From Candidatus Woesebacteria bacterium GW2011_GWA1_38_8 (GTDB lineage Bacteria; Patescibacteriota; Microgenomatia; UBA8517), in NCBI GenBank assembly GCA_000993025.1, contig LBVJ01000002.1:1-34749 (forward strand): 34,749 nt of DNA, written 5' to 3'. Under the pieces are notes generated by a model, which had not been told where the DNA came from, did no database searches, and saw nothing but the letters and a program-made list of their open reading frames with translations. The position numbers and the translations under genes were made by a program. Below are positions 4,152-31,660 of this stretch, in pieces (within the stretch, counting starts at the first letter, position 1; each line of letters starts with the position of its first letter).

Positions 4152-6377
4152 ATGGTAAAACTAAAAGAGATATTTAAGAAAAAGGCTGCACAACCTGTTC
4201 CGGCAAATGTGCCTGCAAGCACAACTGCCATACCACAGCCTCCCGCACAGGCAAACACTCAAACTTTGGCAAATCAGACAATTCAGGAGGCAAAGGTTGT
4301 ATCGCGGAGAGGGCTTGATCAGGAAGACCTTGATATCATCGCCAAACAAGGAAGTACTAAGCCTGAAATAATCGATCCAAACAAAGCTGTTGCGGACGGA
4401 ATGGATGTTCTTGATGTGATCGCGCCAAAAACTCTGGAAATAGATTTTGACTATCTAAAAATAAACGGTGTATATTTCCGGACTCTTTTCGTTTCCGGAT
4501 ACCCCCGTTTCGTTTCCCCCGGCTGGCTTGAACAGATCATCAACTTTGACAGTTCATTGGACATTTCCTTTTATGTCTATCCCGTTGAAGTAAGGGGGGT
4601 TTTGGAAGACTTACGTCACAAGATCGCAGAAATGGAGGCAGAGATCGCAACAGACCTTGAAAGAGGCCGCATTGTTAATGCAACCACACAAGCAAAACTT
4701 GACGATGCTCAGCTTTTACAGGAAGAACTTGTCAAAGGCGCCGAACATTTTTATGAATTTGCATTCTACATCACAATTCCTGCAAGAGATGTTGAAGACC
4801 TAAACGACGTAACAAAACAGGTTCAGGCGACACTCGGATCCCTTTTAGTAACGGCTCAGGTGGCAACACTCGATATGGAAAACGGGTTTTACTCTACCTT
4901 ACCCTTCGCTACCGACCGTCTTTCTATCACACGGAATATGGATACGACATCGCTTTCAACAACCTTTCCATTAACTTCAGCCGAACTGTCGTCCGACTCA
5001 GGAATTCTTTACGGGATCAACCCGCTAAACGAGTCGTTTATTATATTTGACCGGTTTTCAATGGAAAACAGCAATATGGCAATATTTGCCACATCAGGTT
5101 CGGGAAAAAGTTATTTTGTCAAACTTGAAGCGCTCAGATCTTTAATGCTTGGTACGGAGGTCATCGTTATTGACCCCGAAGCAGAATATAAGGACTTGTG
5201 CGGGGCCGTTGGAGGACAATATATCACTTTTGCATACAGTTCCGAATCAAAAATAAATCCGTTCGACCTTTCTCAGGTTTATGAAGAAGGAGAAAACCAA
5301 CTTGGACTGAAAGTTCTTTCCCTGCACGCTCTGTTCAAGGTCATTATGGGTCAGCTGACCCCAATGCAGGAAGCTCTTTTGGACCATGCCTTGGTTGAAA
5401 CATACCGCGGAAAGGGCATCACTCAGGATCCGTCAACACAAACAAAAGAACCTCCTTTAATGGAAGATCTTTACAAAACGCTAATAGGTATGGAAACCGA
5501 ACCCGCCATGGATCTTGCAGCCCGTATAGAAAAGTTTGTTAAAGGTTCTTTCATCGGCATATTTGACCAGCAAACTAATATCGAGATCAACAACCCTTTT
5601 ACTGTCTTTTCCGTACGCGAGGTTCAGGACGCTCTTCGTCCGATCGCAATGTTTATCATTCTTGAATTTATCTGGACAAAGGTTAAAAGGGACTTAAGAA
5701 AAAGACTGCTTATTGTTGACGAAGCGTGGCTTATGATGAAGTTTCCGGATTCGGCGCAATTTATGTGGTCGATCGTCAAACGTGCAAGAAAATATTACCT
5801 TGGACTGACCACTATCACGCAGGACGTGGAGGATTTTCTTACACAAGATATCGGTAAGGCGATCGTCACCAACTCCGCCATTAGGCTTCTTCTCAAGCAG
5901 TCTCCTGCTGCGATAGACAAGGTTGGAGATGTTTTCTATCTTTCTCAGGGAGAAAGACAGCTTTTACTTGGAGCGAACATCGGCGAGGGAATATTTTTTG
6001 CAGGCAATCACCACGTCCCTATATACATCGTATCTTCTCCCGAGGAGCACAAATTAATATCCACAAAGCCATCGGATATTATGAGAAAAAAAGCCGAGGA
6101 TGAAAAGATCGCAAAACACGAGAAGGCAATGTTGGATAAAGCTCCGGTACCAATAAAAGAAACTCCCCCTCCGGCAAAAGAAGTGTTTCAAAATATCCCG
6201 AATGCAAATGATCCCACTGTCCCGGGACCCCTTCTAAATATTTCTGCAGACGCTGTCACTGAAACGCGCGGAATACCCCCCGCCCAGCCCCCCGACATTT
6301 TTGACAGAAAGGTTGATCTGCAACCAAAAAATGTAGAGGGCATTATTGATCAAATTCCGGTTAATCAGGCTAAATAG
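4152..6377 (+). CDS. VirB4-like T4SS ATPase
   Basis: Walker A ATSGSGKSYFVK, Walker B LLIVDEAWLMM, and a VIDPEAEYKDLC motif typical of VirB4/TraC/TrbE ATPases. Confidence 0.92.
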   Translation: MVKLKEIFKKKAAQPVPANVPASTTAIPQPPAQANTQTLANQTIQEAKVVSRRGLDQEDLDIIAKQGSTKPEIIDPNKAVADGMDVLDVIAPKTLEIDFDYLKINGVYFRTLFVSGYPRFVSPGWLEQIINFDSSLDISFYVYPVEVRGVLEDLRHKIAEMEAEIATDLERGRIVNATTQAKLDDAQLLQEELVKGAEHFYEFAFYITIPARDVEDLNDVTKQVQATLGSLLVTAQVATLDMENGFYSTLPFATDRLSITRNMDTTSLSTTFPLTSAELSSDSGILYGINPLNESFIIFDRFSMENSNMAIFATSGSGKSYFVKLEALRSLMLGTEVIVIDPEAEYKDLCGAVGGQYITFAYSSESKINPFDLSQVYEEGENQLGLKVLSLHALFKVIMGQLTPMQEALLDHALVETYRGKGITQDPSTQTKEPPLMEDLYKTLIGMETEPAMDLAARIEKFVKGSFIGIFDQQTNIEINNPFTVFSVREVQDALRPIAMFIILEFIWTKVKRDLRKRLLIVDEAWLMMKFPDSAQFMWSIVKRARKYYLGLTTITQDVEDFLTQDIGKAIVTNSAIRLLLKQSPAAIDKVGDVFYLSQGERQLLLGANIGEGIFFAGNHHVPIYIVSSPEEHKLISTKPSDIMRKKAEDEKIAKHEKAMLDKAPVPIKETPPPAKEVFQNIPNANDPTVPGPLLNISADAVTETRGIPPAQPPDIFDRKVDLQPKNVEGIIDQIPVNQAK

Positions 6378-30762: not shown

Positions 30763-30981
30763 ATGAAAAACATTCTTAAATATATTTCTTCGAGGAATGG
30801 GAGGACTGCCCGTTTTCTTATTGGTTCTGTTGTTGTGGCGATGGGACTTTTTGTATCTCCCATTCTTCTTGTTGTTGGCCTTTTACCCTTATTTGCAGCA
30901 ATTTTTGATGTCTGCGTTCTTGCTCCACTTTTCAAATTTCCTTTTGAAGGTGAAAAACTCCGTGATGCCTTAGAGAAATAA
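30763..30981 (+). CDS. DUF2892 (YgaP-like) small membrane protein
   Basis: ARFLIGSVVVAMGLFVSPILLVVGLLPLFAAIFDVCVLAPLFKFPF. Confidence 0.75.
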   Translation: MKNILKYISSRNGRTARFLIGSVVVAMGLFVSPILLVVGLLPLFAAIFDVCVLAPLFKFPFEGEKLRDALEK

Positions 30982-31043: not shown

Positions 31044-31124
31044 CTTTATGAGGCCGGAGCGGGAATCGCACCCGCGCATAGATGTTTTGTCGGGCGGAGC
31101 CAGATCCTGCTCGGCAGGACAGAC
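31044..31124 (-). pseudogene. 3' part of a broken tRNA-Cys copy, interrupted in the anticodon loop by a 30-nt insert (31090-31119)
   Basis: 31044-31089 and 31120-31124 match the intact tRNA plus 3' flank (ctttatgaggccgg...gatgttttg | cagac). Confidence 0.85.
31090..31119. repeat. 30-nt double-hairpin element, copy A
   Basis: - strand TCCTGCCGAGCAGGATCTGGCTCCGCCCGA; stems TCCTGC/GCAGGA and GGC/GCC. Confidence 0.7.
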
Positions 31125-31134
31125 TCTCTTTATG

Positions 31135-31206
31135 AGGCCGGAGCGGGAATCGCACCCGCGCATAGATGTTTTGCAGACACCCGTGTTTCTACTTCACCAT
31201 CCGGCC
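31135..31206 (-). tRNA. tRNA-Cys (anticodon GCA), no encoded CCA
   Basis: Cloverleaf: GGCCGGA/TCCGGCC acceptor, U73 discriminator, anticodon arm GGTGT-CTGCAAA-ACATC, T-stem GCGGG/CCCGC. Confidence 0.92.
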
Positions 31207-31208
31207 TT

Positions 31209-31463
31209 TTAATTTCCTAGACTATTTTCCAACCTTCCGACAAGTTCTTTTTTGACTGCATGCATTTTCAATTTCTTTTCCCTTTTTGTTGCATCCTCTT
31301 TACTCCGATATGCTTCGTAATAGACCAATACCCAAGGTGTAGCCGATCTGGTTGATTTTACTCTACCCGAATTATGCAATCTATAACGATTTCTCAAATC
31401 CTCTGTCGAGCCAACATACAAGTCTTTATTGGTTTTACTTTTAAGTACGTATACGTAAAACAT
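31209..31463 (-). CDS. GIY-YIG nuclease family protein (84 aa)
   Basis: MFYVYVLKSKTNKDLYVGSTEDLRNRYRLHNSGRVKSTRSATPWVLVYYE. Track extension to 31538 is derived from tRNA/hairpin sequence and was not used. Confidence 0.85.
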   Translation of the reverse strand: MFYVYVLKSKTNKDLYVGSTEDLRNRYRLHNSGRVKSTRSATPWVLVYYEAYRSKEDATKREKKLKMHAVKKELVGRLENSLGN

Positions 31464-31531
31464 TAGTTTTGACTTGCCTTGCTGAGCAAGATATGACTTT
31501 GCTGTACGGGATAGGATCTTGCTTTTTGAGA

Positions 31532-31594
31532 CAGACACCCGTGTTTCTCCTGCAAAGCAGGATCTCGCTTTGCGAGATACTTCACCATCCGGCC
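31532..31594 (-). pseudogene. 5' part of a broken tRNA-Cys copy with a 30-nt D-loop insertion
   Basis: 31532-31548 and 31579-31594 match the intact tRNA 5' half exactly; 31549-31578 is inserted. Confidence 0.85.
31549..31578. repeat. 30-nt double-hairpin element, copy B (opposite orientation to copy A)
   Basis: + strand CCTGC-AAA-GCAGG + ATCTCGC-TTT-GCGAGAT. Confidence 0.85.
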
Positions 31595-31630
31595 ATTGAA
31601 TTTGTATTTTACTACATAGCTGAATAAATG

Positions 31631-31660
31631 AAAACCCCCGCCCCTAACGGCAGGTTTTTT
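31631..31660. terminator. Possible terminator hairpin
   Basis: AAAACCCCCGCCCCTAACGGCAGGTTTTTT, self-complementary with an A/T-rich base. Confidence 0.5.

Follow-up and report, generated by a model that had tools for sequence, protein, structure and literature searches.

Organization of the tRNA-Cys locus

The window analysed here is a stretch of 34,749 nucleotides from Candidatus Woesebacteria bacterium GW2011_GWA1_38_8 (contig LBVJ01000002.1). Between 31594 and 31044 its minus strand carries, in this order, the 5′ part of a tRNA-Cys gene, an open reading frame for a GIY-YIG nuclease, an intact tRNA-Cys(GCA) and the 3′ part of a tRNA-Cys gene (Table 1). This nested order, described in a first-pass annotation made from the letters alone, is reproduced exactly by ARAGORN, Rfam and BLAST, the former two calling one complete tRNA-Cys(GCA) at 31206-31134.

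The outer tRNA-Cys is broken in its loops and the inner one has an intact sequence. Joined without their inserts, the two outer halves are identical to the inner tRNA-Cys over 73/73 nt, which bears out the claim that the broken pieces match the intact gene outside their inserts. BLAST of the intact tRNA against the flanks yields three 100% matches, two of them upstream (nt 1-17 and nt 17-33) and one downstream (nt 34-73), and the 3′ half with its flank forms a 46-nt repeat (31044-31089 and 31128-31173) that is also 100% identical. Both outer halves end at G34|C35, the meeting point that had been assigned to them. The left junction holds a decayed hairpin array, whose intact counterpart in L137, L172, L207 and L222 is [double hairpin]CAAAAC followed by the start of the GIY-YIG gene. 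The motif GTCTG precedes the hairpins on both sides of the enclosed segment, as had been noticed. Its suggested role as a bare target-site duplication does not hold, as the repeated unit in L207 is the whole 42-nt GGTCTG-[30-nt double hairpin]-CAAAAC. The promoter-like site just upstream of the outer 5′ half is probably the original tRNA-Cys promoter, a reading that rests on a consensus match only. No promoter was found when one was looked for between the nuclease and the inner tRNA, a difference that fits the outer copy as the original.

Table 1. Features of the nested tRNA-Cys locus and its upstream flank (window coordinates)
Feature	Position	Strand	Basis
Promoter-like site TTTTCA-17-TAAAAT, directly before the outer tRNA 5′ half	31606..31634	-	consensus match only
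Outer tRNA-Cys 5′ part, nt 1-17: 5′ strand of acceptor, beginning of D-arm	31578..31594	-	17/17 identity to intact tRNA
30-nt double hairpin TCTCGC-AAA-GCGAGA + TCCTGC-TTT-GCAGGA, in D-loop of outer 5′ part	31548..31577	-	
Outer tRNA-Cys 5′ part, gene nt 18-33, last base G34 of the anticodon (standard numbering; GTCTG)	31532..31547	-	
Decayed hairpin array at left G34|C35 junction	31472..31531	-	sequence and comparison with other loci
CAAAAC after the decayed hairpin array	31466-31471	-	
GIY-YIG nuclease gene encoding 84 aa (ATG at 31463, stop at 31209)	31209..31463	-	PF01541
Intact tRNA-Cys(GCA), presumed rescue copy	31134..31206	-	ARAGORN, Rfam
14-nt spacer ATAAAGAGAGTCTG, last 5 nt GTCTG	31120..31133	-	
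30-nt double hairpin TCCTGC-CGA-GCAGGA + TCTGGC-TCC-GCCCGA at right G34|C35 junction	31090..31119	-	
Outer tRNA-Cys 3′ part, C35 to 3′ end	31050..31089	-	repeat identity, BLAST
ATAAAG flank, common to intact tRNA and outer 3′ part	31044..31049	-	

The tRNA-Cys of the window (31134-31206) has G at position 55, giving a T-loop TGC instead of TTC, and A instead of G at D-loop position 18. The same two features are found in the tRNA-Cys genes of L077, L089, L172, L207 and L223. The TGC T-loop occurs in 6 of 37 tRNA-Cys genes and, among the tRNAs sampled, was seen in tRNA-Cys only.

The nuclease gene and its genome

The enclosed reading frame encodes a protein that meets the criterion for the GIY-YIG endonuclease superfamily with a PF01541 match of 62.7 bits. 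The catalytic residues Y5, Y16, G18, R26, H30 and E62 are all present, and these active-site positions are 99-100% conserved across 74 tRNA-linked relatives. The GIY-YIG frame is the only domain-bearing ORF found between the tRNA halves, with no tyrosine or serine recombinase there. The idea of a self-splicing intron was rejected, as no group I or group II family of Rfam matches here at E<5.

The genome measures 1.04 Mb in 59 contigs and has 47 tRNAs, including a single tRNA-Cys, which is the enclosed intact copy. It contains 7 GIY-YIG genes, 6 of them small and one in a 447-aa frame on contig C27 that by length alone looks like UvrC. Five of the 6 small genes adjoin tRNAs (Met, Cys, Pro/Gly, Gln and Lys/Glu). 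The Gln locus on contig C23 is nested as well, its intact tRNA and nuclease being enclosed by two pieces of that tRNA, a 5′ one filled with hairpins and a 3′ one. At the Lys locus on contig C59 a 5′ piece stands before the intact tRNA. Pieces of the same type also flank 11 of the 31 nuclease-free tRNAs of this genome, twice in nested form (L010 Ser, L015 Thr), so that nuclease-free derivatives or a second process must exist.

At L010 (Ser-GCT), L015 (Thr-TGT), L008, L019, L020 and L032, all without a nearby nuclease, ordered and hairpin-filled self-pieces lie about 40-140 nt from the tRNA, and behind several of the 5′ pieces stands an inverted copy with which they would fold into a long hairpin. 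The D-loop inserts of the tRNA-Gln 5′ pieces at C23 (~5540-5600), C59 (1-120) and L059 resemble each other (CGTCTG...CGACGAC or CGACGCC, followed by ATGG). They do so even though one of the three places belongs to a different genus, which looks like inheritance or copying of the broken piece itself. A match to the hairpin pattern in contig C59 was discarded; it lies within 16S-like sequence and looks unrelated.

Recurrence at other loci and in other lineages

A search of CPR genomes finds tRNA halves flanking small GIY-YIG genes at tRNA-Cys, -Lys, -Gln and -Ile. At tRNA-Cys the order 5′ half[double hairpin]CAAAAC, GIY-YIG gene, intact tRNA recurs in L137 (Moraniibacteriota), L172 (Parcubacteria) and L222 (G220), and in the first two the double hairpin stands at G34|C35. 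Nesting on two sides, as in the window, is observed at L207 (Gribaldobacteria), where the 42-nt junction unit is repeated on both sides and is better preserved than in the window, and at L223 (G085). Further tRNA-Cys loci are L124 (Moranbacteria, 3′ side) and L117 (Roizmanbacteria). Nesting on both sides also occurs at a tRNA-Lys (L073) and a tRNA-Gln (L075), and at a tRNA-Ile (L232) one nuclease lies on each side of the intact tRNA, all of it inside a broken tRNA. The loops at the tRNA-Lys, -Gln and -Ile loci are filled by other hairpins. An exact search for the tRNA-Cys junction in 380 genomes of the phylum returned only three matches, probably because the hairpins decay quickly, and relaxed searches through the GIY-YIG gene were more successful. 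Some of the tRNA-Cys loci were located by way of the hairpin junction and do not sample the layout without bias.

The relation between inner and outer tRNA differs among these loci. The two are identical in L172, as they are in the window, and nearly so in L222. They are clearly unlike in L117 (21/33 identical), L207 (26/34 and 26/38), L124 (28/37) and G024, where inner and outer tRNA-Cys agree at 26/38 positions and the outer half, unlike the inner tRNA, is of the native type, agreeing at 35/38 with an orthologue from a sister family of the same taxonomic order. In L075 the outer halves form a stem with one another (TGCGGGA/TCCCGCA) and the acceptor stem of the inner copy is different (TGCCGGA/TCCGGCA). 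These mismatches between inner and outer copies indicate that at such loci the inner tRNA is cargo and are the main evidence for that role. The foreign origin of the inner tRNA cannot be demonstrated in the window, since inner and outer copies are identical there; for the same reason recent insertion, gene conversion and duplication are indistinguishable at that locus.

At the G024 locus (L094, 1300-1620) double hairpins interrupt the native tRNA-Cys at G34|C35 and again in its T-loop, and a foreign-looking tRNA-Cys lies just upstream. No nuclease is present in the stretch examined, and the arrangement has the appearance of a tRNA replacement.

Linkage, piece order and nuclease phylogeny

The association of these nucleases with tRNA genes was counted in 122 distinct small GIY-YIG loci from 38 relatives within the class of the window. 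A tRNA lies within 250 nt of the nuclease gene in 65 of them (53%), involving 29 tRNA species, and on the same strand in 64 of the 65. Chance linkage would be about 3%, our own estimate from ~47 tRNAs per Mb, and strand agreement would be 50%. Outside this class the linkage is weaker, with 3/15 in one small sample of other CPR classes that includes one locus picked beforehand. On the far side of the nuclease 26 of 74 loci (35%) hold a fragment of the cognate tRNA, compared to 0.8% with non-cognate control tRNAs, and 19 loci remain when those found through hairpin patterns are left out. The order of pieces is invariant: among 241 tRNAs all 34 of the 5′ pieces lie upstream and all 28 of the 3′ pieces downstream, without exception. 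The 5′ pieces mostly stop within the D-arm, and 18 of the 28 3′ pieces start at C56, R57 or A58 of the T-loop.

In a tree of the 74 tRNA-linked nucleases the tRNA isotype requires 43 changes, versus 55.3 when the labels are shuffled (0/200). Nucleases linked to tRNA-Cys, nine in number and from several candidate phyla, require 2 changes versus 8.7 (0/500). The alignment has 73 columns, many forks are unresolved and near copies inflate the isotype signal. Clustering by isotype across phyla is the signature of target-specific spread, in which the lineage of the nuclease follows its target and not its host.

Empty and occupied sites

Relatives with a nuclease-free tRNA-Cys in the same neighbourhood, the comparison that the first-pass annotation had proposed, were found. 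In many of them the tRNA-Cys slot contains no nuclease and has an M23 peptidase gene on one side and a PEGA/SH3 gene on the other, the latter followed further out by UbiA. In this UbiA-PEGA-tRNA-Cys(-M23) slot the nuclease is present in G000 and G044 and absent in several relatives. The closest pair belongs to one genus: G009 has PEGA, 62 nt and tRNA-Cys without a nuclease, and G044 has a leader of the G009 type holding a clean 30-bp double hairpin, followed by the nuclease and then the tRNA. Judging from the identical loci L108 and L198, G044 is Candidatus Woesebacteria GW2011_GWB1_39_10, which places the family of the window in that part of the Microgenomates. The HEG criterion of occupied and empty alleles at one site is thus met by G009 versus G044 and by the syntenic relatives. 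The tRNA-Cys/M23 interval of the present genome also holds a small YgaP-like membrane gene (PF11127; window 30763-30981), a relative of which lies about 1 kb from the tRNA-Cys of G001.

The double hairpins of the window (31090-31119 and 31548-31577) belong to a 30-nt family that is dispersed in CPR genomes and has further members in L094, L108, L112 and L113-L224. It consists of two 15-mers, TCYNGC-NNN-GCNRGA, with triloops that are often complementary. Copies stand directly after TTG in 42/87 cases versus 4.4% of control positions, and the empty/occupied pair G009/G044 displays a clean 30-bp hairpin insertion without target duplication. The idea that the double hairpin is a mobile unit that brings in the nuclease was dropped; the repeat is common without tRNA or nuclease, often after TTG. 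The role of the loop hairpins in the outer copies is a matter of inference: they may be scars, a block on folding competition with the inner tRNA, or an independent repeat family.

Origin of the nested arrangement

The nested locus is probably a free-standing GIY-YIG homing cassette that has entered a tRNA gene and maintains tRNA function with its own copy. According to this model the nuclease would cut its cognate tRNA gene in a conserved loop, a cleavage of DNA that is itself inferred. Repair would then copy in a cassette that joins the nuclease gene to a tRNA of matching isotype, either complete or able to restore function. Two outer halves would be left of the original tRNA beside its old promoter and the cell would live on the inner copy, so that it could survive the insertion even where the tRNA is single-copy. 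The outer halves would gain hairpin inserts in their loops and later decay or vanish, and this decay would yield the common one-sided form, either 5′ piece-nuclease-intact tRNA or intact tRNA-nuclease-3′ piece. An element that disrupts tRNA-Cys while carrying a replacement tRNA and a homing-type nuclease was one of the two origins suggested at the outset, and it is favoured by the recurrence, the empty sites and the differing inner tRNAs. Mobility was not observed; homing or transfer, and the cassette instead of later gene conversion as the source of the inner tRNA, are inferred. Several points count against homing. The nuclease would be expected to attack the intact inner tRNA as well, and the escape of that copy is unexplained; a recognisable far-side fragment is left at only 35% of the tRNA-linked nucleases; and the 11/31 nuclease-free tRNAs carry fragments of the same type.

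The other origin suggested at the outset, a nested local duplication, remains possible for the window, where inner and outer copies are the same, and the comparative evidence favours a homing element over it. In its most explicit form, which we consider rather unlikely, a SegB-like enzyme cuts in tRNA genes and error-prone or homologous repair of the break leaves partial tandem copies. The tRNA pieces would then be mere by-products, with the nuclease gene lying by chance within the duplicated segment and no tRNA-bearing cassette involved. There is a precedent in SegB of phage T6, itself a GIY-YIG enzyme, which cuts inside tRNA genes and promotes the amplification of tRNA segments (PMC13096335). 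The identity of inner and outer copies in the window and L172 and their near-identity in L222 would follow, as would the repetition of the ATAAAG flank along with the 3′ half, the excess of one-sided over two-sided pieces and the nuclease-free pieces of this genome. A tandem partial copy also puts 5′ pieces upstream and 3′ pieces downstream, so piece order does not discriminate. What such a duplication leaves unexplained are the clearly different inner tRNAs of L075, L207, L117, L124 and G024, and outer halves that, in L075, pair mutually and not fully with the inner copy. A separate question concerns only the number of events behind the layout of the window and is compatible with homing: two independent one-sided events, a 5′ half with the nuclease and a 3′ half with hairpins, could sum to a nested look. 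This is conceivable without being likely. One-sided forms of both kinds are frequent, nuclease-free 3′ pieces lie ~44-140 nt downstream of many tRNAs and, in G015 and G009, at this very locus, and L232 has a nuclease on each side; yet the halves in the window share the exact G34|C35 break and rejoin to a perfect tRNA, and L207, with the same 42-nt junction on both sides, presents the two-sided state as a unit.

Hairpins are found in the D, anticodon and T loops of outer pieces from several lineages, and the pieces could on that account be functional RNAs, acting as folding insulators, processing signals or decoys, with the nuclease a bystander in the intergenic space between tRNAs. We regard this as very improbable in view of a nuclease linkage that is strand-specific, reaches 53% and tracks the isotype. 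In a shuffle comparison, moreover, the outer pieces of the window fold barely better than shuffles (z -1.1 to -1.6), and pieces vary greatly and are missing in many relatives. The assembly is a draft of 59 contigs, and an artefact would have to be considered if the locus stood alone. The layout is present in many independent genomes, including single-contig ones (G008 L262; G036 L270 and L304), and this recurrence excludes chance or faulty assembly, leaving the latter next to no weight.

The homing cassette may not be confined to this locus. Whether there is a CPR-wide class of isotype-specific, tRNA-nested GIY-YIG homing cassettes, repeatedly swapping native for foreign tRNAs and reshaping streamlined tRNA sets, is a question on which our own opinion is evenly divided. 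If the homing reading is right, it accounts for the broken tRNA pieces that ring the tRNA genes of these tiny-genome bacteria, gives a function to many small GIY-YIG genes of CPR genomes that are otherwise anonymous and provides a route for the lateral replacement of tRNAs. It would also open to testing the question of how a host survives when a cassette breaks one of its essential genes. The essential gene hit here is a tRNA, often present in a single copy, for which the element appears to supply a complete spare.

Relation to known systems

The first-pass annotation knew of no named element with this layout, and in the literature searched no description of a CPR tRNA/GIY-YIG element or of an enclosed rescue tRNA was found. 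Integrative elements with tRNA attachment sites insert in a conserved tRNA loop and restore part of the tRNA. In contrast to these, the cassette here has no integrase, measures ~0.5 kb, carries a GIY-YIG nuclease and encloses a complete tRNA, and both native halves can persist.

By analogy, the closest known systems appear to be SegB of phages T4/T6 and the HEG elements of fungal mitochondria that carry replacement gene ends. SegB of the T-even phages and its kin resemble the nuclease gene of the window in being small intron-less GIY-YIG genes among tRNA genes (PMC13096335; PMC2988022 Table 1). The SegB motif is RAWTSGAAC (PMC13096335), with the reverse complement GTTCSAWTY. SegB resides in phage tRNA clusters by intergenic insertion, with no split tRNA and enclosed rescue tRNA described, whereas the cassette here is found in chromosomal CPR tRNA genes of many isotypes. 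We take GTTCSAWTY to be the T-loop consensus, where most 3′ pieces start; this recognition is our own, and the term is absent from the main text of the SegB paper.

Insertion sequences with homing endonucleases in CPR rRNA genes share the host group of the cassette, and their GIY-YIG genes occur in elements without a match to group I or group II introns (PMC11270868). They differ in residing in rRNA genes and being mostly self-splicing introns, and tRNA is not mentioned (PMC11270868). The mORF elements of fungal mitochondria, known from atp6 of Allomyces and from atp6, atp9, cox2 and nad3 of Glomus, are similar to the cassette in that the HEG enters an essential gene and brings a foreign replacement end, the native end persisting as a remnant past the HEG (PMC3630166). 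The mORFs affect organelle protein genes by one-sided replacement of the 3′ end, whereas bacterial tRNA genes are involved here, on either side or with the whole tRNA. Selfish nuclease genes were known beside phage tRNAs or with replacement ends of protein genes in fungal mitochondria. Free-standing GIY-YIG homing genes are of a known kind; the distinctive feature here is the enclosed, presumed rescue tRNA.
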